A model generated the notes under the pieces. It ran no database searches, was not told the origin of the DNA, and saw nothing but the letters and a program-made list of their open reading frames with translations. From IMG/VR virus record IMGVR_UViG_3300025141_000022, positions 62,001 through 126,000 of that record: DNA of 64,000 nucleotides, one strand, 5' to 3'. Below are positions 1-40,631 of this stretch, piece after piece (the first letter of the stretch is position 1; each line of letters begins with the position of its first letter). This DNA comes from a virus. The position numbers and the translations under genes were made by a program.

Positions 1-2544
1 TTATTAGAGACATGTAGCCCGTTTGAATGGAACTCTACTGAATCCCCTTCCTGGTTTTGGGGAAAGAAATTTGGCGAAGAACCCGTACCAGATCCAATGA
101 ACCCAGAAGAAAATCTCGAAATTGAACCAGATTACAAATATCCTTATGCGCCGTTATCGCAAAACAATGGTATGGTTGGGGTCGCATCAGTGTTCGTGCC
201 TCCATGGGACGCATGTAATCCACCTGGGCCAGACGTTATGCAGTGGGATGAGATGTGCGATATTATAGATGAGCTACAGAAAACTTTGCCAGAAGATGAA
301 AGGCTGGGCTACCTCCCAGATTGTCGTCAAGATCCACCCTTTGATCGAATCCAAGGAAAGTTTTGTCGCGGCGGAACTGAAGGTATGATTAAAGTGATTA
401 TGCGTATCCACATCGTAGAGATAATGATCAAGAGCCTACATACATTTTTAAGGTTTCAATCATCTTATTCAGGAACTCATGATGATCTATTTCTTTCGTA
501 TTTGGTTTCAAGAACTTCTTACAACCTTAAAGAAGATGGTAAGGGCTTTTGGGGGCAGGAGAACTGGTCATATTATTACGAATTCATTGAGCAATGTGCC
601 AGAATTTGCCGAAGAAAAGTCGAAGCTGGAGAGATCGAGAATCCTTCCGAAGAATTAGAACAGGCCCTATCTACAATTGCAGACGAAGTAGAAAAATGGA
701 AAACTGACCGAGTACAGCTAGAAATACCTCCCAAAATTTTAGATAGATTCATGGGAGTGTATAGAGAAAAGTGGGAAGAGGTCATTAGTAGAGCAGAGCC
801 CGCAGCCTTAGTTTGTGTAAAAGAACTTTACAAATTAGAGTTGGGCCCAATGATGGATAATCTGCACTCAGCAGTTCAAGGATATCCAATTATTAACGCT
901 AGTGAAGATTTTGGAACATTGCACAAATTATTGTTAGGATTGACAAACGATAACTGGGTTCCAACATTTGATGCCCCATCGCACTTAGCCCTTAAAGATG
1001 AAGAAGGGGAACTGTCAATAACCGAAGCTGATGATCGATTTGGAACGTTCTTGACTGAAGACAATGCCTTCAATGCGATCCAAACAGATCTTGAAGCTGA
1101 TGAAGAGGAGGGTAGAGCCGCTGTAAATGGACATGAAGCAACAGTCGATAGATTCGCAGATGGCTGGTTCTTCTTAGAGAGATATATTAGGGTTGATGAG
1201 AAGTGGACTACCGCAACAGAATATAGCGATGGTTGGATCGCCTCTGGAGAAAAATCCGTGTTTGATTTTAGTCTATCCGAGGCTATTTCATTTGGTATAG
1301 ATGAAACCACTGGAGAAAGTTCAGTTGTAGATGAGGAAACATTTGCCGTAGCCGCTGCTGAATTTTATGATGCTACCGGCCACACTGTTACTGCAGATTG
1401 GTCAGATGAGGGTGAAATGACGGCAATTTATGTCGATGGGGTATTAATTGAAAGCGCATCCACCATTAGCGACTTAATTGTGTATGAGCCTAATTCCAGA
1501 GATCCTAGGCTATATGGAATAATGAATATAGAAGCATGGAAAGATTTTATTCAGGCTTCGGGCTTAGAAGGCACCATCGCTGATTACTTTGAAAATTGGT
1601 ACTTTGGCTTAAGGTTATGTTATGTTCCATCATTAGCTGAAAGAACAGACTGGGGCGATGATTCTGTATCTATCCCTAGTCTAATTAAAACTTTAGTTGA
1701 TGATGAGTCTAACGCAGACTATGCTTACAATGCGATTACAAAAATGAAATCGATTGCAATTCCCGACGCTGGTAGATCACACGAAACAACCTCAACTAGT
1801 ACCAGCAGCACTAGTGATACTGTGGCGCGAGAAAGTCCTTATATCGGGTCGCCGCCGGATAGTTCAGCAGACTCATCTAAAAGGCTTTATGCAATCCCAC
1901 TTGTATCTGTAGAAGTAGCAATAGAGGAACAATATGTCCAAAACTATGCTGGTATGGATGATTATGACGAAGAGTGCATGCTCAGACTACTAAGGGCAAC
2001 ACCGGCATATAAAACACTATTTGAATATTGTTTTCCAATGGATAGGTTTTTGTCCCTTACAACAATCTATAATGCTCACAGCACGATTCCATCTATTGGG
2101 CAGCACGGAGAAGGCGCCGACGCTTCCAGCGGCTTTGACACCCGCACAGATGGCGAAGCTGATGCCGAAACCGACGAAAATTGGGCTGGAATAGATTTTC
2201 CACTAAATGCAATTTTTGGAGATGTTGGCCCCGGTGGAATATTTGGATTCCGAGGGTGGGACCAAGATGTTATGGATGAGACTCGACGCCGCTGTAAGCG
2301 AATTTTCCGTAGTTATTATAACAACGATGACGAAGGGTATGAAGATGAGGATGACGCCGATGAGGGCGGTCCTATGGGTCGCCTAAGAGATAGGATGCAG
2401 CCGGCCAACTTAAGTAGAAAAGGTCTGAGATGGTGGCAAAAACGGTGGTTTAAGAAACAGCATGGCCGAGGATGGGAGTACAAACCAGATGCCCTTCTTA
2501 TCGGAACCGATACATGCCCCGAAGAAGAGGAAGAGGACCTTTAA
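1..2544 (+). CDS. Large acidic virion protein, 5' end outside window (unidentified)
   Basis: The frame is open from base 1 without a stop, so the gene starts upstream of the window. The first ATG at 97 is only an internal methionine: the 32 codons before it are normal coding sequence. At least 847 residues are visible. I do not recognise the family. The chain is acidic, with a Ser/Thr-rich linker near 1790-1880, a basic Trp-rich patch near the end (2430-2500) and a run of Glu at the extreme C-terminus. No signal peptide or membrane segment is seen. It lies just upstream of baseplate genes gp25 and gp6, so a tail or baseplate structural role is the best guess from position. It ends 76 nt before the next gene, a gap that holds a promoter candidate. 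Confidence 0.85.
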   Translation, partial: LLETCSPFEWNSTESPSWFWGKKFGEEPVPDPMNPEENLEIEPDYKYPYAPLSQNNGMVGVASVFVPPWDACNPPGPDVMQWDEMCDIIDELQKTLPEDERLGYLPDCRQDPPFDRIQGKFCRGGTEGMIKVIMRIHIVEIMIKSLHTFLRFQSSYSGTHDDLFLSYLVSRTSYNLKEDGKGFWGQENWSYYYEFIEQCARICRRKVEAGEIENPSEELEQALSTIADEVEKWKTDRVQLEIPPKILDRFMGVYREKWEEVISRAEPAALVCVKELYKLELGPMMDNLHSAVQGYPIINASEDFGTLHKLLLGLTNDNWVPTFDAPSHLALKDEEGELSITEADDRFGTFLTEDNAFNAIQTDLEADEEEGRAAVNGHEATVDRFADGWFFLERYIRVDEKWTTATEYSDGWIASGEKSVFDFSLSEAISFGIDETTGESSVVDEETFAVAAAEFYDATGHTVTADWSDEGEMTAIYVDGVLIESASTISDLIVYEPNSRDPRLYGIMNIEAWKDFIQASGLEGTIADYFENWYFGLRLCYVPSLAERTDWGDDSVSIPSLIKTLVDDESNADYAYNAITKMKSIAIPDAGRSHETTSTSTSSTSDTVARESPYIGSPPDSSADSSKRLYAIPLVSVEVAIEEQYVQNYAGMDDYDEECMLRLLRATPAYKTLFEYCFPMDRFLSLTTIYNAHSTIPSIGQHGEGADASSGFDTRTDGEADAETDENWAGIDFPLNAIFGDVGPGGIFGFRGWDQDVMDETRRRCKRIFRSYYNNDDEGYEDEDDADEGGPMGRLRDRMQPANLSRKGLRWWQKRWFKKQHGRGWEYKPDALLIGTDTCPEEEEEDL

Positions 2545-28737: not shown

Positions 28738-29739
28738 ATGCGATCACACAAGCTTATTTTAGAGAATTGGCGAAAGTTTTTAAAAGAAGTAGACGCGGGC
28801 CCAACGGCTGCGATGCCTGCTCATTTAGATCCTAAAGTAAAGACACAGGCCGACTATGATACCCTGGACCAGATGGGCTATCAAGTTCTTAAGGAGCTTG
28901 GTCGTGGGCTATTTGGTATAGTATACCAAGTGGAAAATAAGCAAAGCGGAAAAAGGTTAGCCGCCAAGGTTGTTAAAGCAGACAATCGAGAGGCAGAAAA
29001 TTACCAGTTCGCCATGGACAACAAAGCCTCCATGCCAGAAGAGTTTGGTAAATACCTACCAGAAGTATATGAGGTGGCCCCCGGCCACGATGGTTATAAT
29101 ATTATCCTCATGGAAGAGTTAGTACCTTTGGATCCCCAAGTTGCTCAAGAATTGTTTGCAGTGGAAACAGATGATGCAAATCAGGAAACTCCCGATTCTA
29201 AGAAACATGAAAAGATCTTCAGAGATCCAGAAGCTCTAGCTGAATTGGTTGGTGAATCTGTATACGCAAACAGAATATTACATCAATTAAATCTTGGTTT
29301 TAAGGAGATGAGAAGGCTTAGAATGGTAGCAAGAAAAGCAGTTACCAAAAAAGTTCACAACGATCTTGACTCCCTTGTGATGACCGTGTATGGTACTATA
29401 GTAAGAGAGATAGATGATCAGAGCGCAGCAATATATAAAGCTTTCGAAAAAGACTTGAAAGAAACTATGTCATATTATCTCAACAAGCAAATTGTACCAG
29501 TCCACCAGCCAGAGCCAGATGAGGAGTATTTGGAAACATGGACCTCTGGAGGTCTTGAAGGGACAAGAGCTTTGTTTCCAGAAGCTAAAGGTTTAGCACG
29601 AGCTATGAAATATTTTATGCAAGATAAGAATTGGCGACCAAAAGACGTGCATTGGAAAAATGTAATGGCAAGACCATCAACTAAAGATATGGTTATTGTT
29701 GATTTAGGATTATTTGAAAAAGGAATATTTGTATTATGA
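28738..29739 (+). CDS. Protein-kinase-like protein with putative capsid-targeting peptide
   Basis: A 333-residue protein with two parts. Residues 1-17 end in LENWRKFLKE, the type-A N-terminal peptide shared with the next four genes; cleavage after LKE17 would fit a T4-type prohead protease. The rest is a kinase-like fold: Gly-rich loop GRGLFGIVY (55-63), ATP-binding Lys77 in RLAAKVV, hinge-like IILMEEL (122-128), catalytic-loop equivalent D303-VHWK-N308 and DFG equivalent D322-L-G. All key catalytic residues are present, but the chain stops nine residues after DLG, so there is no normal activation segment or lower C-lobe. Packaging and injection as an early host-modifying kinase is inferred. 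It overlaps the next gene by 4 nt. Confidence 0.8.
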   Translation: MRSHKLILENWRKFLKEVDAGPTAAMPAHLDPKVKTQADYDTLDQMGYQVLKELGRGLFGIVYQVENKQSGKRLAAKVVKADNREAENYQFAMDNKASMPEEFGKYLPEVYEVAPGHDGYNIILMEELVPLDPQVAQELFAVETDDANQETPDSKKHEKIFRDPEALAELVGESVYANRILHQLNLGFKEMRRLRMVARKAVTKKVHNDLDSLVMTVYGTIVREIDDQSAAIYKAFEKDLKETMSYYLNKQIVPVHQPEPDEEYLETWTSGGLEGTRALFPEAKGLARAMKYFMQDKNWRPKDVHWKNVMARPSTKDMVIVDLGLFEKGIFVL

Positions 29740-30350
29740 AAATTATAATTGAAAATTGGAGAAGATATTTAAAAGAAGAGGTTGATCTTCAGGCTGCACA
29801 ACAGCTTATTGATGCGAACCCATATTTAAAAGGTAAATTAATGGCAACACCAGAGAGTATTATTGAAGGAGAGGGTTATGTTCTTGCCGTATCGGAAGAA
29901 TCACTGGGGCATATTAAAGATCGCCATATGGACGCTAGCGCCCCAGGCTCGCTGTTTCTTCCCGAAGTTGATTTAGGAGAGGTGATGAGAAGCTTGTTGT
30001 CTATGCCCCCAAGCGAAGAGTCAGGAGGCAGAGTGAAGTGGTTAGGCGTGGACGCCGGCATGCCAGTTGGAAAAATGGGCGTTAAACTTGGCGATCCAGA
30101 GGAAGTGGCAAAAATGCAAGATTATAAAATGCCCGGCGGAAGAAACGAAATGGTTAAATTAACTTCTGGTGAACGAGAGCCAACAAATGAAATTAGTCTA
30201 ATCACTGCGGAGCTTGGCGATCTGGGTGGTAAGAAATTATTATCTTTGATCACTGCCTTCCCCGGCGGCATAGAGGTTAATGGAAAAGAGATGCCCATGG
30301 ATAGAAACGATTTTGCTGCACAGGGTTTTTACTTTGTTGTATCACAATGA
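29736..30350 (+). CDS. Putative packaged protein with HIKDRH motif
   Basis: A 204-residue protein beginning with type-A peptide IIENWRRYLKE; cleavage after LKE14 is predicted by analogy. The body has SEESLGHIKDRHMD (54-67) followed by PGSLF, and ends with beta strands (LLSLITAFPGG, GFYFVVSQ). A His-x-x-x-Arg-His motif followed by PGS-aromatic recalls nuclease or toxin domains of the phage-associated barnase/EndoU/colicin/RelE-like (BECR) group; this is tentative and based on motif shape only. ATGA overlaps join it to both neighbours. If packaged, it would enter the host with the DNA. Confidence 0.7.
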   Translation: MKIIIENWRRYLKEEVDLQAAQQLIDANPYLKGKLMATPESIIEGEGYVLAVSEESLGHIKDRHMDASAPGSLFLPEVDLGEVMRSLLSMPPSEESGGRVKWLGVDAGMPVGKMGVKLGDPEEVAKMQDYKMPGGRNEMVKLTSGEREPTNEISLITAELGDLGGKKLLSLITAFPGGIEVNGKEMPMDRNDFAAQGFYFVVSQ

Positions 30351-31138
30351 AACTCCTACTTGAAAATTGGCGACTGTATTTGAACGAGATTACAACCCTT
30401 GATTCTGAACTAAAGCAGGGTTTTGCCGAAGCAATAGAAGATTCGCAATTCTGGACGCTACCCAATGCCGAAGATGATGTTGACATTGGCAACCACCCTG
30501 ACGAGATGGAAACCCCAGCCAGCGAGGCATTGAGAATTGCGCTAAACGAAAAAGCACAAGAGCTTGACACTGATTTATATTTTATTGTAACTGTTTCAAA
30601 TGTACATGTGTTATCTAAAGATGATCCGCATGGAGGGTATCCAAGTAATTGGATGTCGCATGGTATGTATCAGGGCCCTCAATCCGGCCATCATGTGATA
30701 TGGATAGAGCTTCGACCATTGGGAGATGATTATGAAATTTCTGAACTGAATCCTTCTGAATTGATAAAGAAGATCTCAAGAACCATTAACCATGAAATGG
30801 TACATTACAAACAACTAAAAAAGCAAGCTGAATCAAAGGGGATTAGTGAAGAAGACGCATGGCAGCAAATGATAGATGACCCGGCCCAACTACCACAAAC
30901 CAGCGATAGAACAGACTATCTGTCAAGGCATCCAGAAGTTGACGCTTACGCTCATGAAGCCGCCGAAGAATTAATAGATAAATATGGCGGTCGAAGGGCT
31001 CTACAACTAATTAAACAAAGAGACTCTGATGTTGTTGGAGTTTTGGCAGACTACAGAGAAGTTTTCAAAGACGACCGAGAAACAATGAAAAAGTTTTTAA
31101 AAAAGCTGTATTCACAAATTATGAGCAAGGAACAATAG
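30347..31138 (+). CDS. Zincin metalloprotease with putative capsid-targeting peptide
   Basis: A 263-residue protein. Residues 1-14 carry the type-A peptide (LLENWRLYLNE); LNE14 is a T4-type protease site. The body has a zincin motif, H149-E-M-V-H153 in TINHEMVHYKQ, and 44 residues later RHPEVDAYAHEA (Glu197/His203), which would supply the third zinc ligand as in related HExxH proteases with an E-x-[D/E]-A-x-A helix. No signal peptide. The substrate is unknown; packaging would deliver a protease into the host at injection. It overlaps the previous gene by 4 nt (ATGA) and is followed after one base by the next tagged gene. Confidence 0.8.
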   Translation: MKLLLENWRLYLNEITTLDSELKQGFAEAIEDSQFWTLPNAEDDVDIGNHPDEMETPASEALRIALNEKAQELDTDLYFIVTVSNVHVLSKDDPHGGYPSNWMSHGMYQGPQSGHHVIWIELRPLGDDYEISELNPSELIKKISRTINHEMVHYKQLKKQAESKGISEEDAWQQMIDDPAQLPQTSDRTDYLSRHPEVDAYAHEAAEELIDKYGGRRALQLIKQRDSDVVGVLADYREVFKDDRETMKKFLKKLYSQIMSKEQ

Positions 31139-31139
31139 A

Positions 31140-31703
31140 ATGAAACACGAATTGATAATGGAAAATTGGCGACAGTTCTTAAATGAAGAAGATGAAGAGC
31201 AGCTTGAAGAAGGCTGGAAAGAAAAAGTAGCCGGCTTAGCAGCAGTCGGGTCCATAGGGCTTGGGGCGCCTAATATGGCACACGCTGGACCTGGAGATAA
31301 TATAAGAGATAAATATCAATCAACTTTGCAAATGGCAAAAGAAAAAGGACAACAAGTTATCGATAAATTACCGGCGCCAATTGATCGCACATCTGGTGCA
31401 GGAGCTGAAGCAGAAAGTGGAACGTCTACTTCTGATGGCTATCAACAAAATGCTGATGGAACTCACGAATTTAGAGTTAAATTGCCTATTGAGAAATATG
31501 AAACACACGGCGGCAAGACTTTTGGCGAGATGAAGGCTCGAAACGGCCTTATGCAGGCGTTGCAGCAGTCGGGGATTGTAACCGGTGATACGATATCCGG
31601 TATATCGCTGTCTTATGATCGAGCTAATGGTCAAGTAGTTGCTAATTGGAGCCCAACATCATCGGCGACGGCTTCTGCTATTTATAAAGCTATGGGCAAC
31701 TGA
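31140..31703 (+). CDS. Putative packaged protein with export-signal-like segment
   Basis: A 187-residue protein starting with type-A peptide LIMENWRQFLNE (predicted cleavage after LNE16). Residues 27-49 then look like a signal sequence: a WKEK basic start, an Ala/Gly/Val-rich core and an Ala-His-Ala ending before GPGD, as for signal peptidase I. Removal of the first tag in the prohead would leave this signal near the new N-terminus. The remainder (about 100-187) is a small alpha/beta domain that I do not recognise. Part of the five-gene operon. Confidence 0.7.
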   Translation: MKHELIMENWRQFLNEEDEEQLEEGWKEKVAGLAAVGSIGLGAPNMAHAGPGDNIRDKYQSTLQMAKEKGQQVIDKLPAPIDRTSGAGAEAESGTSTSDGYQQNADGTHEFRVKLPIEKYETHGGKTFGEMKARNGLMQALQQSGIVTGDTISGISLSYDRANGQVVANWSPTSSATASAIYKAMGN

Positions 31704-31711
31704 AAATACTT

Positions 31712-32548
31712 ATGAAGCTCTTAATGGAAAACTGGCGGTATTACTTAACCGAAGAACAACAACTATCGGATGAGTTTTTAGAGTTTCTGTTTTCCGACAG
31801 AATAAGTGCTTTTATGAGCGATTCCACACTAAATGAGGTGGAGAGTTTAGAAACCAAAGCTAAAAGGCTAGCCAAGAAATATGGCGTCCCGTTTGCTATA
31901 GCTATGGGCATACTTACTGGTGCAGCAGGAAGCAAAGTAGTTGGAGACATGCAAAGTCCCGCTAACGACCCAGAAATTGTACAACAGATAGAGAAGCCCT
32001 CTCCGCGCTCCTCATTGCCGCCAGGGTATTCTGATCTGACTAATCTGCAGGCTATGGAAAAAGCATGGGAGACTATTGATGGTAAGCAACATCAAGCCGC
32101 CCCCGTTTCTGGCGGATATCCAACAGCGCAAGGTATGATGCCATTTACATATGTGCCTGCTGTAGAGTTATCTGGTGGCGACATTCTACCTATGTCACTA
32201 ATGACCGCCGATGAGTACAGGGCATTCATACTGGATAAACTAGAGAGTGGAAACCCACAGGAGGTTATTTACCTTAAGAATATGGTTTATGGGGATACCG
32301 CAAAATGGCTTTCAGGAACGGGAGAGTCAGACTTCAGGGTCACTAATGGGCTACCAGTTTTGCCACCAGAGTGGTCGATTGCACATGATGTATTCGCTAG
32401 CGAAGTAGAAGAACGAATAAATAAAGTAGTAGAATATTTGCAGGAAAATCCAGATCATAGAGAAGCCGTTGCTGTGGAGCTTAATCTTGCTAGCGTAGAT
32501 GATTTAGAACCTTTCATAAACAGTCAGTATGCAAAATTGGCTAGATGA
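31712..32548 (+). CDS. Putative packaged protein with hydrophobic segment
   Basis: A 278-residue protein with type-A peptide LLMENWRYYLTE (predicted cleavage after LTE14). Residues 58-77 (GVPFAIAMGILTGAAGSKVV) form one hydrophobic segment flanked by basic residues (KAKRLAKK), consistent with a single membrane span. The rest is soluble, mixed helical and unrecognised. It is the last gene of the block; a promoter lies 10 nt after its stop. Whether it acts in the virion or in the host membrane after injection cannot be told. Confidence 0.7.
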   Translation: MKLLMENWRYYLTEEQQLSDEFLEFLFSDRISAFMSDSTLNEVESLETKAKRLAKKYGVPFAIAMGILTGAAGSKVVGDMQSPANDPEIVQQIEKPSPRSSLPPGYSDLTNLQAMEKAWETIDGKQHQAAPVSGGYPTAQGMMPFTYVPAVELSGGDILPMSLMTADEYRAFILDKLESGNPQEVIYLKNMVYGDTAKWLSGTGESDFRVTNGLPVLPPEWSIAHDVFASEVEERINKVVEYLQENPDHREAVAVELNLASVDDLEPFINSQYAKLAR

Positions 32549-32773: not shown

Positions 32774-33709
32774 ATGACTTCAAAATATAAAATTATTTCA
32801 GATATTCTGGGCGATAGTTATCAGGTCAGCGGTGAGCGCCTGTTTCATTGCCCGTACTGCAAACACCATAAAAGAAAATTATCAATTAATATTGATAAGA
32901 ATGTATACAAATGCTGGATTTGTGATACGAATGGTCGTAATTTAAGACGCATTGTCCGCCGCTTTGGGACGTTTAAGCACCTTCAAGAGTGGGACACTAT
33001 CTCAGGTCGAATTGATATCAACGACTTTGATAATCTGTTTCGTGAAGAAGAGAAATCAACAGAGATAGAGCAGATAATAAAACTACCCGAAGATTTTATA
33101 TCCTTGGCCAACAACGATTTGCCTAAATCATCCAGATGGCCACTGAGGTATCTAAAGCATAGGGGTGTTACCAAGAAAGATGTACTAAAATGGAAGATAG
33201 GCTATTGTGATTCTGGGCCCTATGCGGGTAGAATTATTATACCATCGTTTAATATGGACGGGCATGTAAATTATTATATCGCTAGAACGTATGATAATTC
33301 TTGGCCAAGATACAAAAATCCGCCAGCATCAAGAAATGTTGCATTTAACGAACTCTATATTGATTGGAATAAAGATTTAGTAATTGTAGAGGGTGTTTTT
33401 GATGCTATTATAGCCGGAAACAGTGTGCCTATTTTGGGCTCAACTCTTCGACCAAGTTCTCAACTAGTACGAAAAATTATCTACAATGATACGCCGGTTT
33501 ATTTAGCTCTTGACCAAGATGCCCAGCAAAAAGAAAACAAGATTATCAAAACACTTTTGCAATATGACATCGAGCTTTACAAAATTGATGTGTCTGGTTA
33601 TGAAGATGTCGGAGAGATGAGTAAAGAAGAGTTTTCTAAACGTAAGGAAAATGCGTACTTTATCTCTCAAGAAGACTATTTATTGACAGCGGCTATAAAT
33701 ACTATCTAA
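32774..33709 (+). CDS. Short DNA primase (zinc ribbon plus TOPRIM)
   Basis: A 311-residue primase of the DnaG/T4 gp61 type. The N-terminal zinc ribbon is FHCPYC (Cys26, Cys29) with CWIC (Cys47, Cys50) on a beta hairpin. The TOPRIM part contains GRIIIPSFNMDG, the conserved acidic strand LVIVEGVFDAI and the D-x-D motif LALDQDA. It lacks a fused helicase and a long C-terminal domain, as in T4, where gp61 works with helicase gp41. It makes RNA primers for lagging-strand synthesis. Its placement behind its own promoter inside the structural region is unusual. Confidence 0.85.
   Translation: MTSKYKIISDILGDSYQVSGERLFHCPYCKHHKRKLSINIDKNVYKCWICDTNGRNLRRIVRRFGTFKHLQEWDTISGRIDINDFDNLFREEEKSTEIEQIIKLPEDFISLANNDLPKSSRWPLRYLKHRGVTKKDVLKWKIGYCDSGPYAGRIIIPSFNMDGHVNYYIARTYDNSWPRYKNPPASRNVAFNELYIDWNKDLVIVEGVFDAIIAGNSVPILGSTLRPSSQLVRKIIYNDTPVYLALDQDAQQKENKIIKTLLQYDIELYKIDVSGYEDVGEMSKEEFSKRKENAYFISQEDYLLTAAINTI
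33694..33701 (+). promoter_or_regulatory. T4-type late promoter sequence TATAAATA
   Basis: An exact match to the T4 late promoter core, inside the last codons of the primase gene and 23 nt before the GTG of the next gene. It is the only exact copy I noticed near a gene start, so it may be chance. Confidence 0.3.
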
Positions 33710-34186: not shown

Positions 34187-34513
34187 ATGAAAATTACAAA
34201 AGCACAACTTAAGCGAATAATTTTAGAAGAACTTAAAGCCGTGACAGAACTTGACAAACTTGATGATCAGGATCCGACTGCAGAAAGGCCCCCGGAGTCC
34301 ACCATGGATACATCAAAGATTGATCGAACTGGTGCCAAAGCTGGTGAAGAGATGCGTGACGTACAACTGGCAACAAAGTATTTGAAGAAAATCGACAACC
34401 ATAAAGAATTCGGACAACTACTCGCAGCCGTTCTAAAGCATGCCGAACAAGATCCACAGATGCAGGCTGTTCTTAAAAGAATGTTTCAACGCCGTCGAGA
34501 TGTGGGAGTATAG
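34187..34513 (+). CDS. Small protein with type-B N-terminal peptide
   Basis: A 108-residue protein that begins MKITKAQLKRIILEEL, a clear type-B peptide; the ILE14 site fits T4-type prohead proteases. The central part is charged and probably disordered (DQDPTAERPPEST); the C-terminal third is helical (LLAAVLKHAEQDPQMQAVLKR is the predicted helix region, residues about 80-100) and basic at the end. AAGGA lies before the ATG. Function unknown. Confidence 0.7.
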   Translation: MKITKAQLKRIILEELKAVTELDKLDDQDPTAERPPESTMDTSKIDRTGAKAGEEMRDVQLATKYLKKIDNHKEFGQLLAAVLKHAEQDPQMQAVLKRMFQRRRDVGV

Positions 34514-34523
34514 GGAGAACACA

Positions 34524-34994
34524 GTGGCTAAAAGAAAAAATGTAAAGAGAATTGACCCGAGATACTTTTTGGATGAAACAGTGCATAGAGGGCTGGATGA
34601 AGGTGTCGTAAAAAAGCCCTTTGGAGACACCATGATCACGCACGACGATTATGAGCAGTCTGACGAGCCTCCTCGCGATGACACTGGTGAGCCGCCCCTC
34701 ACACAACGCTCGCAACGTAAACTTAGCCACGATCATATGCTGGCAAGAATTAACGATGCAAAGCTATACCTCCAACAACAAGAGGACCCAGTTGCGTCAG
34801 AACTCTCGCAGGAGCTTGATGGCGTAATACACACTATGGAGTTGCTAAATGATTATTTTATGGGTGATATGCCCGCAGACGCGAATCCATTGAGCCGAAG
34901 ACCTCCCGGTGGAGGACTCGGTGGTCCGGGTAAAGGCCCCAGGCATATGCGCGGAGACTCGGGAGGCGGCTACCCAGAAGAGGAGATGTCGTGA
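34524..34994 (+). CDS. Protein with type-C N-terminal peptide (DPRYFLDE)
   Basis: A 156-residue protein. I chose GTG 34524, which follows AGGGAGA at proper distance; the ATG at 34440 in the same frame would lie inside the previous gene. The N-terminus KRKNVKRIDPRYFLDE closely matches NNKRRDPRYFLNE at the start of the protein coded at 47199-47747, and both end at an L-x-E site. The middle contains a helical segment (MLARINDAKLYLQQQ) and the end is Gly/Pro/Arg-rich, probably disordered. Its stop overlaps the GTG of the next gene. Likely another packaged protein, by inference. Confidence 0.7.
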   Translation: MAKRKNVKRIDPRYFLDETVHRGLDEGVVKKPFGDTMITHDDYEQSDEPPRDDTGEPPLTQRSQRKLSHDHMLARINDAKLYLQQQEDPVASELSQELDGVIHTMELLNDYFMGDMPADANPLSRRPPGGGLGGPGKGPRHMRGDSGGGYPEEEMS

Positions 34995-35704
34995 AAATCA
35001 CAAAAGCAAAATTAAAAGAAATCATTATGGAAGAGATCGTTAAAGAGTCTCTAGATGATTATCATTTCGGTTTTGACCCAACACACAATCAGCCAAAAAT
35101 TAGTTCTGCTCAGGCAGCAGAAGAGGCGCTGTGGCACTGGTATGAAGAAGCGTTTATGAATAATGCGATGCCTCTTCTATTAGAATCATACCCCGAGGTT
35201 GCAGGTTATAGTCCATCTAATCCATCAGAGCTTCTTGATGTGCTATCAGATCTTAATCGACAATTTAAAGAAAATACAGTGGGCAGACACTCTCAGGAAG
35301 ACGATCCTATGATGAATGCACCAATGATGGAGAACAAAATGAAGATTACAAAAAAAGAATTTAGACAGATTGTCTTGGAAGAGTTGAGAGAGTGCATGTG
35401 TGATTCTGCACCTATTGTTGAGTACGAGACAGAAGAAGGCGAGATCGAAAGAATAGTAAACAAGTTACGTCAAGCTATGATGCACAAGTCAGAGCAAGAG
35501 GTAGGCCCGGCAGTTCAGGCCCTCAGAATGTTTATTGATTCTCTTGAAATGGCACAATCCGAGGAAGAGCTTGACCAGTTGGTACAAGACCTATCTGGCT
35601 CATCAGTACCAGAGTTTGAGGCGTCCCCAATAGTCGAAAGTACGATGCCGCTTGCGATGCTAAAAGAGGTCTTAAAGAGGCATTTTAGCACGCTTTTGAA
35701 ATAA
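34991..35704 (+). CDS. Double-tagged protein: two type-B peptides in one frame
   Basis: A 237-residue frame from GTG 34991. It begins MKITKAKLKEIIMEE (IME14 site) and carries a second complete peptide, MKITKKEFRQIVLEELRE, at residues 117-134. The second Met (ATG 35339) has GGAG about 7 nt upstream, so internal initiation could make a separate 121-residue protein. Alternatively the full chain could be cut twice by the prohead protease. Both halves are helical and acidic, with no recognised domain. It looks like a fusion of two tagged genes. Confidence 0.7.
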   Translation: MKITKAKLKEIIMEEIVKESLDDYHFGFDPTHNQPKISSAQAAEEALWHWYEEAFMNNAMPLLLESYPEVAGYSPSNPSELLDVLSDLNRQFKENTVGRHSQEDDPMMNAPMMENKMKITKKEFRQIVLEELRECMCDSAPIVEYETEEGEIERIVNKLRQAMMHKSEQEVGPAVQALRMFIDSLEMAQSEEELDQLVQDLSGSSVPEFEASPIVESTMPLAMLKEVLKRHFSTLLK

Positions 35705-35762: not shown

Positions 35763-35855
35763 ATGCCGGCCAGCGCCCTGCTGGCTATTATTTGTAGTTA
35801 CCTAGCTATGTTTGCGCTAGGGTGGCTTATTGGCGTGTCCACTAAGGAGAGTTAA
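35763..35855 (+). CDS. Possible 30-residue membrane peptide
   Basis: A short frame behind the promoter. From ATG 35763 it encodes a peptide with one hydrophobic segment (ALLAIICSYLAMFALGWLIG) and a polar end (VSTKES). An in-frame GTG at 35745 would coincide with the expected transcription start and so be leaderless. The only Shine-Dalgarno-like bases (GAGG) are 2 nt from the ATG. Its stop lies one base before the TTG of the next gene, suggesting coupling. Coding status is uncertain. Confidence 0.4.
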   Translation: MPASALLAIICSYLAMFALGWLIGVSTKES

Positions 35856-35856
35856 A

Positions 35857-38800
35857 TTGAAGTTCGCACACATTGCTGATACGCATATTAAAAATTTAAA
35901 ATATCATTATGAGTATAAGGTTGTTTTTGAACAACTCTATAAAAGACTAAAAGAAGAAAAAGTTGATTGCATCGTCCACTGTGGTGATATTGCACACACA
36001 AAGACACAGATTTCACCAGAGTTTGTGGAGTTGTGCTCTGACTTTTTTCGAAACCTTGAGTCAATCGCACCCACATATATTATTTTGGGAAACCACGATG
36101 GCAATCTAAAGAATAGTAGTCGCCAAGACGCACTTACGCCTATTGTGGAGGCTCTTGAATTGCCAAATCTTCATTTGCTGAAGAATTCTGGCGAGACACA
36201 TATCAACAATGATGTCTGCTTGAATGTTCTATCAGTATTTGACGAAGACAATTGGATGGCACCTACGGAGTCTGATAAAATTAATATTGCCCTTTACCAT
36301 GGTTCTATTTCTGGCGTAAAAACAGATATTGGATGGGTCATGGAACACGGAGAGCACGACATATCCATTTTCGATAAATTTGATTTTGCTTTTCTGGGAG
36401 ATATCCATAAAACAAATCAAGCCATAGATCGAGAAGGGAGGATACGCTATCCCGGTAGTACAATTCAGCAAAACCATGGAGAAACAAATGATAAGGGTAT
36501 TCTTATTTGGGACATCCACAACAAGCAAGACTGGGATGTATACCATATCGCATTTGAAAATCCAAAGCCGTTTGTCACAATTGAATTAACGCCAAAAGGA
36601 AGACTTAGAAAAAACAAAAAGATCCCCACCGGCGCACGTCTAAGACTAGTATCTAATAATAACCTGCCTTTAGATAAAATGAAGAAGGCCGTTGAAGTTG
36701 CAAAGCATAGATACAATCCAGAATCTATTACTTTTTTAAATCGCGCCGCAGGCTCAAGGGGAAATGTTGATGATTTGACTGGCAATATGATGAAGACCAA
36801 TCTTCGTGATATGGCTGTACAAGAAAAGTTTATTCGCGAATATCTGAAAGATTATGAACTTGAGGAAGGTGCCATACAAAAGGTGTTCGATCTGAACAAG
36901 AAGTATAATAAGCTTGTCGAAGACGGAGAAGAAGTTTCCAGAAATATTAATTGGAAATTGCAGTCGTTAGAGTGGGACAATCTATTTAACTACGGAAAGG
37001 GGAACCGAATTGGGTTTGATAAGTTAAATGGAATTGTTGGTATCTTTGGCAAAAATTATTCTGGTAAATCTTCTATCATTGATAGTGTATTGTATACCTT
37101 ATTCAATTCTACCTCAAAGAATGAACGTAAGAATCTTAATATTATTAACCAAAATTGCGATGTGGGGCGAGGAAGATTACGAATTAAAATCGGAGACGAA
37201 GAATACCAAATCGAGAGAACATCTGAAAAGTACATTAGAAAGCTTAAAGGAGAGACAACGCAGGAGGCAAAAACGGACCTAGAGTTTACAAGCACGAATA
37301 GAATTCTTGGCGAAGACAAGGTTCACAACGGCTTGACAAGAAACGAAACAGACAAGAATATTCGCAAAATGTTTGGAACACTAGATGACTTCTTGCTGAC
37401 TTCGATGGCCAGTCAAAATGAGTCCTTGGCCTTTATTAAAGAGGGTTCAACTCGACGCAAGGAAATTCTTGCTAAATTTTTAGATCTTGAAATATTTGAT
37501 AAGAAGTTCAAGATGGCCAAGGAGGACGTTGCAGATCTTCGCGGAGCTATCCGCCGCCTTCAAGGTCGCGATTTTGATGAAGACATCGATGTTGCATCGC
37601 AAGAACTGCTCATGGCCGAAGAAGAGATCGAGGTCCACAAGAAAGAGTGCCAAGACTGTGAGGTTACGATTGAGCAGCTAAAAGAAACGCTAAAGCTGGT
37701 TGAAGAAAAGATTTCTTCTATCCCGCAAGAAGTTATCGATATCGTTCAGGTAAAAGATGATTTTAATGCCAAACAAGAACAAACCACCTCGTTGAAGTCT
37801 AAAATTGAGGTACTATACGCTGATCGAAAGATCAAGCAAGAACTGTTCTCTAAAATTAATGATTTCACCAGCAAATATGATATCGATGAACTGAAAGATA
37901 AAAAGCAAAAAATTGATGAGATAGAGGAGTCGATAGAAAATGTCTTGGTCAGCTTACATCGAGAACAGCAAGAGCAGAGCCGTAATAAGAAAAAGGAACA
38001 GCTACTGAAAGAGCATGAATATGATCCCGACTGTACATATTGTTGTGAAAATAAGTTTGTCAAAGAGGCTCATGTTGCTGTAGCCAACATTGTGCTTAAT
38101 GAAAGGAAAATAAAGTCTTTCACGTTGAGTGTTGATTCTTACCGCGATGACCTTGAGGCAATGAAGCCGCAACAAGTTAGTGACCGAATTGACAAATATA
38201 ATCATATACTAGAAAGTAGAGCAGAGTTATCAAACGAAATAGCAAATTTGAATATTTCAATTGAGAGAAACAAGCTAGCTGCAGAAAGGACACAAAGGGA
38301 ATCAGCCGAACTACAAGAAAAGTTGGATTTATACGAAAAAAATAAAGAAGCCATCGAAAGTATGCAAAAGTTGATCAAACTCAGACAGGGCACGATGAAG
38401 AAGATAGATATTAATGCAGCTTCTTTAAAGGTTTGCCAAGAAGAATTGGCAGATTTGTATATGGCGCAAGGCTCGTGTGAGCAGAAGCTACAACACTTAG
38501 AGGATCTGAAGGAAGAGTTTGAGAACTTGCAAGAAGAGTATTCTGCCTATGACTTGTTCATGCGCAGCATGCACACTAGCGGAATTTCTTATGATATTAT
38601 CAAAAAGAAGTTGCCCGCAATTAATAATGAGATTGCTAAAGTATTAGCCAATGTTGTAAATTTTGAAGTCTTTTTTGAAGACGATGGCAAAAGACTCAAC
38701 ATCTTTATTAAACATCCACAATATGAGCCGCGCCCATTAGAGATGGGATCAGGTGCAGAAAAGTCTATCGCAGCTATGGCAATTCGACTGTCTTTACTTT

Positions 38801-39018
38801 CTGTGTCTAATTTACCAAAGGGCGATCTATTTATATTAGATGAACCCGGCACTGCCTTAGATGCCGACAACATGGAAGGATTTGTTAGAATTTTAGATAT
38901 GGTTAAGAATTACTACAAGACAGTGTTGTTGATTTCGCACATGGATACGCTAAAGGACGTGGCAGATGTTGTAATTGCAATAGAAAAGAAAGACGGATTT
39001 GCCAATGTCAACGTCTAA
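35857..39018 (+). CDS. 46/47: Fused recombination nuclease-ATPase (gp47-gp46, SbcD-SbcC/Mre11-Rad50 type)
   Basis: A 1053-residue single chain joining two normally separate proteins. The start chosen is TTG 35857, 7 nt after AAGGAGA, giving MKFAHIADTH; the upstream TTG at 35830 lies before that site. The nuclease part (about 1-330) has the metallophosphatase motifs IADTH, HCGDIAH, LGNHDG, ALYHGS and LGDIHK. The ATPase part has Walker A GKNYSGKSS (about 398-406), long coiled coils with a zinc hook DCTYCC (Cys726/Cys729), signature GSGAEKS and Walker B FILDEPGTALD (about 990). T4 gp46/gp47 process DNA ends for recombination-dependent replication. It is preceded by a promoter. Confidence 0.92.
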   Translation: MKFAHIADTHIKNLKYHYEYKVVFEQLYKRLKEEKVDCIVHCGDIAHTKTQISPEFVELCSDFFRNLESIAPTYIILGNHDGNLKNSSRQDALTPIVEALELPNLHLLKNSGETHINNDVCLNVLSVFDEDNWMAPTESDKINIALYHGSISGVKTDIGWVMEHGEHDISIFDKFDFAFLGDIHKTNQAIDREGRIRYPGSTIQQNHGETNDKGILIWDIHNKQDWDVYHIAFENPKPFVTIELTPKGRLRKNKKIPTGARLRLVSNNNLPLDKMKKAVEVAKHRYNPESITFLNRAAGSRGNVDDLTGNMMKTNLRDMAVQEKFIREYLKDYELEEGAIQKVFDLNKKYNKLVEDGEEVSRNINWKLQSLEWDNLFNYGKGNRIGFDKLNGIVGIFGKNYSGKSSIIDSVLYTLFNSTSKNERKNLNIINQNCDVGRGRLRIKIGDEEYQIERTSEKYIRKLKGETTQEAKTDLEFTSTNRILGEDKVHNGLTRNETDKNIRKMFGTLDDFLLTSMASQNESLAFIKEGSTRRKEILAKFLDLEIFDKKFKMAKEDVADLRGAIRRLQGRDFDEDIDVASQELLMAEEEIEVHKKECQDCEVTIEQLKETLKLVEEKISSIPQEVIDIVQVKDDFNAKQEQTTSLKSKIEVLYADRKIKQELFSKINDFTSKYDIDELKDKKQKIDEIEESIENVLVSLHREQQEQSRNKKKEQLLKEHEYDPDCTYCCENKFVKEAHVAVANIVLNERKIKSFTLSVDSYRDDLEAMKPQQVSDRIDKYNHILESRAELSNEIANLNISIERNKLAAERTQRESAELQEKLDLYEKNKEAIESMQKLIKLRQGTMKKIDINAASLKVCQEELADLYMAQGSCEQKLQHLEDLKEEFENLQEEYSAYDLFMRSMHTSGISYDIIKKKLPAINNEIAKVLANVVNFEVFFEDDGKRLNIFIKHPQYEPRPLEMGSGAEKSIAAMAIRLSLLSVSNLPKGDLFILDEPGTALDADNMEGFVRILDMVKNYYKTVLLISHMDTLKDVADVVIAIEKKDGFANVNV

Positions 39019-39878: not shown

Positions 39879-40314
39879 ATTTTTAGCAATATTTCTAAGC
39901 TTTAATCTTGCAGTACCGATGACAGCGTTTGCAGAAGATCCTCAATTTACCAATTTGGAAATAGGAGAGGCGGCGCCTTTTGCTGGAACTTTGTTCAACC
40001 CAGCGGCTGTATCTGAGTTGATAGTTGATAGTCAATTTTCTATGGATGAGTGTGATTTACGCATACAATTTGAAAAAGATCGGATCGCAGCACAATACCA
40101 ACTGCAGTTGGACATTTTACAAGCTAGTTATGATGGTTTACAAGAAAGGCACACTCTTTTGATGGACATCAAGCAAGAAGAAATTGATACTTATAGGGAT
40201 ATGGCCCTAGAGAGGCCAAATCGGAACAACCATTGGTGGCTAGCCGGTGGCGTCCTATCGGGTATTGGATTAACAATAGGAGTCCTTTGGGCCACACAGG
40301 AGATACAACAATGA
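39868..40314 (+). CDS. Exported coiled-coil protein with C-terminal membrane span
   Basis: A 148-residue protein starting in another frame inside the end of the Rz-like gene. Residues 1-24 form a clear signal peptide (MWNKFLAIFLSF, then PMTAFA before ED). The middle is helical and acidic to mixed (IQFEKDRIAAQYQLQLDILQ), and residues about 122-143 (WWLAGGVLSGIGLTIGVLWA) form a membrane segment. There is no lipobox cysteine, so it is not a standard o-spanin; it could be a periplasm-facing partner of the Rz-like protein. Its stop overlaps the next ATG (ATGA). Confidence 0.65.
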   Translation: MWNKFLAIFLSFNLAVPMTAFAEDPQFTNLEIGEAAPFAGTLFNPAAVSELIVDSQFSMDECDLRIQFEKDRIAAQYQLQLDILQASYDGLQERHTLLMDIKQEEIDTYRDMALERPNRNNHWWLAGGVLSGIGLTIGVLWATQEIQQ

Positions 40315-40631
40315 AAATATCAAAAGGTAGATTAAAGCAACTTATCATGGAAGAGATGAGCTATATAGAAGAGGGCGGAGAAGCCGGCCACTTAGAGCCC
40401 GTGCGCTCATTTGATAGACTCTTTGAAAAAGGCGCCGCTGGTGACGTTTTTGCAGAAGCTGTAGCAAATGAGTTAATGCTAGATGAAGAAGAAGATTTTC
40501 TGGCTATGCGAGGTAGCATTCAACGTGCGTTGGTAGATTGGTATAGACGCCATCAAAGTCAGAGATATCCAACCGGCGCCACCCCTGGTGCCCCGATGCA
40601 AGAAACTAACAAGAAAAAGCGTGGGAAATGA
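40311..40631 (+). CDS. Small protein with type-B N-terminal peptide
   Basis: A 106-residue protein starting at ATG 40311, which overlaps the preceding stop by 4 nt. The N-terminus MKISKGRLKQLIMEEM is a type-B peptide with an IME14 site. The rest has an acidic helix (AVANELMLDEEEDFLAM), an RxxxxDWYRRH helix and a basic disordered tail. Function unknown; a packaged internal protein is inferred. Confidence 0.7.
   Translation: MKISKGRLKQLIMEEMSYIEEGGEAGHLEPVRSFDRLFEKGAAGDVFAEAVANELMLDEEEDFLAMRGSIQRALVDWYRRHQSQRYPTGATPGAPMQETNKKKRGK

Follow-up and report, generated by a model that had tools for sequence, protein, structure and literature searches.

A predicted single-chain Mre11-Rad50 (SbcD-SbcC) type protein of a T4-like marine phage, and apparent remodelling of the chain among its relatives

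The window, the whole stretch of 64,000 nucleotides analysed here, is part of a 184,913-base virus record from a T4-like marine phage. ORF translation gives an uninterrupted frame of 1053 codons for the fusion gene, and translation of the reverse strand over the same interval meets many stops. The features of the locus are collected in Table 1. The best start, judged from the spacing of the AAGGAG and from the same start position in relatives, is the TTG at 35857; an alternative TTG at 35830 would lengthen the ORF by nine residues that are absent from relatives, and was rejected. TTG initiation, noted in the preliminary description, is thus real but not conserved among relatives, and the controlled expression read from it finds no support: 79 relatives start with ATG (57), GTG (11) or TTG (11), without a conserved signal.

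Table 1. Features of the fusion gene and its surroundings (window positions unless stated; the CDS includes the stop).
Feature	Position	Strand	Basis
ORFs sharing N-terminal tags	28738-29739, 29736-30350, 30347-31138, 31140-31703, 31712-32548, 34187-34513, 34991-35704, 40311-40631		
DNA primase gene, upstream of the fusion	32774..33709	+	PHROG 47, 4.5e-39
Shine-Dalgarno-like AAGGAG, 7 nt 5' of the TTG start	35844..35849	+	sequence reading
CDS, Mre11-Rad50 (SbcD-SbcC) type fusion, 1053 aa, TTG start	35857..39018	+	translation, profile matches
Metallophosphoesterase (Mre11/SbcD) domain, ~residues 1-225; DTH, GDIAH, GNHD, H148, GDIH	35857..36531	+	Pfam PF00149, PHROG 100, motifs
Nuclease motifs	window protein residues: D8-T-H10; GDIAH 43-47; GNHDG 78-82; H148; GDIH 181-184		
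Capping and Rad50-binding helix-loop-helix-sized region, ~residues 226-345	36532..36891	+	alignment A1; boundaries inferred from sequence
Fusion junction, residues 343-366, RNxxW signature at its end	36883..36954	+	homologue alignment
Rad50 N-lobe, ~residues 363-560; Walker A 398-406, Q-loop Q520	36943..37536	+	Pfam AAA_23, motifs
Ascending coiled-coil arm, ~residues 561-722, fast-evolving	37537..38022	+	divergence comparison
Zinc-hook apex DPDCTYCCENKFVKEA, residues 723-738, Cx2C (C726-x-x-C729)	38023..38070	+	motif reading
Descending coiled-coil arm, ~residues 739-894	38071..38538	+	divergence comparison
Rad50 C-lobe, ~residues 895-1053	38539..39015	+	PDB profile matches to Rad50, motifs
C-lobe motifs	window protein residues: signature MGSGAEKS 963-970; Walker B FILDEPGTALD 992-1002; H-loop H1028		
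Re-split relatives	loci L214, L244, L253, L215, L321-L349, L356, L365, L366, L392-L395, L083		

Profile searches divide the protein into two enzymes. Pfam places Metallophos at residues 1-184 (4e-12) and AAA_23 at 373-619 (3e-9), and PHROGs places SbcD at residues 1-281 (3e-37) and SbcC at 211-1051 (4e-53). NCBIfam and PDB profiles likewise show an N-terminal SbcD-type phosphoesterase followed by an SbcC/Rad50 ATPase, with scores under the NCBIfam equivalog and subfamily cut-offs. The proposal that one chain carries a Mre11-type nuclease followed by a Rad50-type ATPase without a break is borne out by the frame and by the Pfam and PHROGs domains, and since the two form one chain by construction, their stoichiometry is fixed at 1:1. 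Between them, residues ~226-345 are conserved in the sequence alignment and have the right length for the capping and Rad50-binding helix-loop-helix. The Rad50 set is complete (Walker A, Q-loop, signature, Walker B, H-loop and cysteine hook), and the phosphoesterase metal-site motifs known from Mimivirus R555 (DxH, GD, GNHD, H, GDxH) are present. The earlier statement that all motifs of both proteins are found holds for the nuclease and ATPase sets, with one exception: Mre11 motif V is GDIH and not GHxH. Its D182 is an Asp at the position of PfMre11 His206 and is invariant in 138/138 distinct homologues, nearly all of which also keep the catalytic and ATPase positions.

A single frame of this kind could in principle be an assembly or sequencing artefact that masks a frameshift or stop codon separating two genes, and the preliminary description had named such an error at residues 330-390 as its refuter. 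A scan of viral contigs yielded 405 encoded relatives, and the best 80 of these, retrieved at 53-62% identity, come from independent assemblies and all carry the nuclease and ATPase motifs within one long frame (80/80). Among the 138 distinct homologues used to count conservation, 137 share one length of the junction (residues 343-366) and 137 have the tryptophan W366; R362 and N363 are present in every one. Fusions are also found in named phages, including Microcystis phage Mel-JY01, Tenacibaculum phage pT24 and Xanthomonas phage XacN1. An artefact is therefore hardly credible: the named error is excluded, and the suggested look at related phages does find the same fusion. The suggestion that the fusion is unusual is not supported; such proteins have been reported since 2011 (PMC3175470), and the form is the rule among the best 80 relatives. 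Within this group of marine phages a single chain is the normal arrangement and no oddity.

Two relatives lie in records assigned to cellular organisms. A shortened copy of the phage fusion (L104:2995-5052) in the MAG record CP070664, labelled a candidate division WOR-3 chromosome, breaks off at a stretch of N, where a phage contig was joined into the scaffold; it was rejected as a chromosomal copy. A full-length relative of 34% identity (L105:1802-4924) lies on a 6.4-kb contig binned as "archaeon" (NZCT01000014.1), which is probably a viral contig inside a MAG. Elsewhere, a GIY-YIG-like homing endonuclease ORF (L195:6195-6950) immediately follows the fusion gene.

The 184,913-base record, whose completeness is unstated, contains one SbcC match and one SbcD match, and both are the fusion gene. 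It also carries UvsX (phrog_97), SSB, DnaB helicase, a DnaE-type DNA polymerase and a 5'-3' exonuclease, together with terminase and major capsid genes from phage families. Of the 111 relatives having more than 2 kb of upstream sequence, 106 show a primase match upstream of the fusion, and a large terminase lies downstream in 58/67; Mel-JY01 has the same order of primase then fusion. The polymerase (L090:11393-14848, genome G000) is of DnaE/PHP type in a T4-like phage, alongside UvsX and a phage SSB.

A separate observation concerns window ORFs that share one of two N-terminal tags, xENWRxFLxE or MKIxKxxLKxIIxEE, and are otherwise unrelated. The tags resemble T4 capsid-targeting sequences, and at least one further tagged ORF lies outside the window (L090:1372-3894). 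The tagged ORF at 28738 has a weak protein-kinase match and the one at 30347 a HEMVH motif. On the strength of the tags, these ORFs may form a set of head-packaged proteins.

Comparison across the family revealed two traits of the relatives, hook switching and re-splitting, which are of wider interest than the window gene itself and are not oddities of that gene. The window hook is a canonical Cx2C (DPDCTYC), which is the minority type in the family. At the same place in the relatives (L002-L199) both forms occur: DPxCxxC is seen in 22 of the 138 distinct homologues, Cx6C (PCGxxFxxC) in 98, Cx7C in 11 and other cysteine patterns in 7. Reviews describe the CXXC hook motif as conserved in all life, and no paper on Cx6C hooks was found in open-access literature text. 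We mapped the hook types onto a quick tree, built solely on the nuclease and ATPase regions, with SH-aLRT supports and no bootstrap. On this core tree the Cx2C versus Cx6-7C distribution needs 11 changes, 10 of which are forced by branches with SH-aLRT ≥95. The two hook forms would thus have interchanged at least ten times, which appears to be new to the literature. The sister relatives L005 and L013 match at 92% over the core but at 39% and 47% over the arms, where third-position identity is lower too, and the arms of L005 are closer to those of L004. The simplest reading, argued from this one pair, is that an arm-plus-hook cassette was exchanged. For pairs with core identities up to ~85%, arm divergence is about equal whether the two hooks are of the same or of different type, and for the arms in general the comparison points to fast evolution. 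The hook form may possibly set who pairs with whom, and its repeated switching offers a natural test of whether zinc hooks pair by type.

The search for the Cx6C hook DNA pattern uncovered relatives in which the gene is broken right after GDIHK, inside the Mre11 phosphoesterase domain; the window gene is not split. A search with the N-parts returned more; among loci L201-L398, 72 are fused and 39 split after GDIHK, counting the classifiable loci with some near-copies. The split N-part (~215-235 aa) keeps every metal ligand and matches Metallophos, and Rad50, the capping region and what remains of the nuclease fold lie in the C-part (~860-880 aa). In most pairs the two genes share 4 nt (ATGA, GTGA or TTGA) and others have a short spacer; in L215 and in the huge phage LR756508 another gene lies between the parts. 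The intervening ORF in LR756508 (L083:4665-5582) is endonuclease-like, with zinc-finger-like cysteines. An intron in the LR756508 gene was considered, gave no Rfam match and fits less well than a split gene. For the re-split set as a whole, a programmed frameshift or intron was rejected, since several members have a small gene or a stop-containing spacer and others a 4-nt overlap. Four long split-gene records and LR756508 yielded no further SbcD or SbcC match.

Split genes nest among fused ones on the tree, where at least three state changes are forced, and the C-part still starts with Mre11 sequence, so the split postdates the fusion. Re-splitting is seen in a single clade of relatives and in a huge phage, and it too appears new: no paper on a re-split Mre11-Rad50 gene was found in open-access literature text. 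Across 24 distinct split pairs the added N-tail carries a net charge of -4 to -7 and the added C-head one of 0 to +8 (mean +5), the lone value of 0 probably reflecting a mis-set start. The halves would have to reassemble, plausibly by pairing of these acidic and basic tails as beta-strands. Taken together, we consider it somewhat probable that the chain has undergone two kinds of remodelling, neither of which was found described: exchange of Cx2C and Cx6-7C hooks, and a second cut that makes it a natural split nuclease. If true, the re-split clade would reveal at which point a break in the Mre11 fold is tolerated, and how a pair of charged tails can make the fold whole again.

The window gene of this T4-like marine phage very probably encodes an Mre11-Rad50 (SbcD-SbcC) machine in a single chain, a function assigned from sequence. 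Two fusion chains would dimerise via their nuclease domains and ATP-engaged Rad50 heads, and the hook cysteines of two arm tips would be joined through zinc. ATP-driven opening and closing of the heads would gate a Mn-dependent nuclease that trims and resects double-strand ends, from which UvsX would start recombination-dependent replication and repair; the fused gene would stand in for the usual two-gene operon. Resecting and tethering DNA ends for recombination-dependent replication is most likely the role of the predicted machine. The primase neighbourhood and the UvsX, SSB and helicase genes make such a role fit that of gp46/gp47 in T4, which make 3' ends for recombination-dependent replication (PMC3175470). 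The short linker agrees with the 9-12 residues argued to be permitted between Mre11 and Rad50 in the T. maritima complex (PMC3175470).

Two other readings of the function were weighed. The nuclease half might be inactive, leaving an ATP-driven DNA tether only, and the Asp that replaces PfMre11 His206 throughout the 138 homologues is what would favour it. Asp can bind metal; the remaining ligands and GNHD are conserved, and so strict a conservation of the Asp itself speaks against decay. The same GDxH is found in LR756501, LR756508, pT24 and a D12-type protein of Vibrio phage PG07, and is reported for R555. With one metal-ligand His replaced by Asp in motif V, nuclease activity is a prediction, and the invariance of that Asp argues for function; we regard an inactive half as unlikely. 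It is also quite unlikely that the main role lies outside replication, for example in host DNA degradation or counter-defence. Fast-evolving arms and repeated hook switching, which suggest changing partners, speak for it, but the neighbourhood and gene set are replicative and the phage record holds no other SbcCD match. The single-chain machine serving replication remains our preferred reading.

Fusions of this kind are already known, and the window gene is one more example. In their 2011 paper (PMC3175470), Yoshida, Claverie and Ogata document Mre11/Rad50 fusions from Mimivirus (R555), Bacillus phage 0305phi8-36, plasmids, bacteria and eukaryotes; they also report that R555-like sequences abound in marine viral fractions, and they argue that fusion took place repeatedly. 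Compared by its published description, R555 shares with the window protein the order of Mre11 then Rad50, a short linker, the H in GDxxH and the Asp reported in place of His206; it differs in its 1351 aa and long arms (PMC3175470), against 1053 aa here in a T4-like phage. Mel-JY01 WWT39521.1 (PP395634) is likewise a full-length fusion with primase immediately upstream, GDIH and a CxxC hook. It is 31% identical to the window protein, and its annotation, "AAA domain containing protein", covers the AAA part only.

T4-type gp47/gp46 (S-CRM01, Sf-CH5, phiM7, Melnitz-2) likewise pair a nuclease with an ATPase and share the expected role in recombination-dependent replication, but they are two genes, with GHFH or GHYH in gp47, a shorter gp46 (569-574 aa) and, in the gp46s examined, a CPTC or CYTC hook. 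The similarity of the window protein to them is weak (E ~1e-13), its nearest relatives being GDIH fusions. GDIH is common to the window family, LR756501, LR756508 and pT24, and GDLH occurs in the separate PG07 protein. Calling the gene a gp47-gp46 fusion in the strict sense is therefore not sustained, given GDIH in the window protein and its 138 homologues versus GHFH/GHYH in four separate gp47s. XacN1 ORF305 is also a single-chain nuclease-ATPase fusion, but it is of GHFH type with both halves closest to gp47/gp46; it is apparently independent of the window family, which makes at least two fusion events likely. SbcD/SbcC and archaeal Mre11/Rad50 share the fold families and motifs by profile and differ in being separate chains. 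The window protein is a compact, complete candidate for Mre11-Rad50 structural work.
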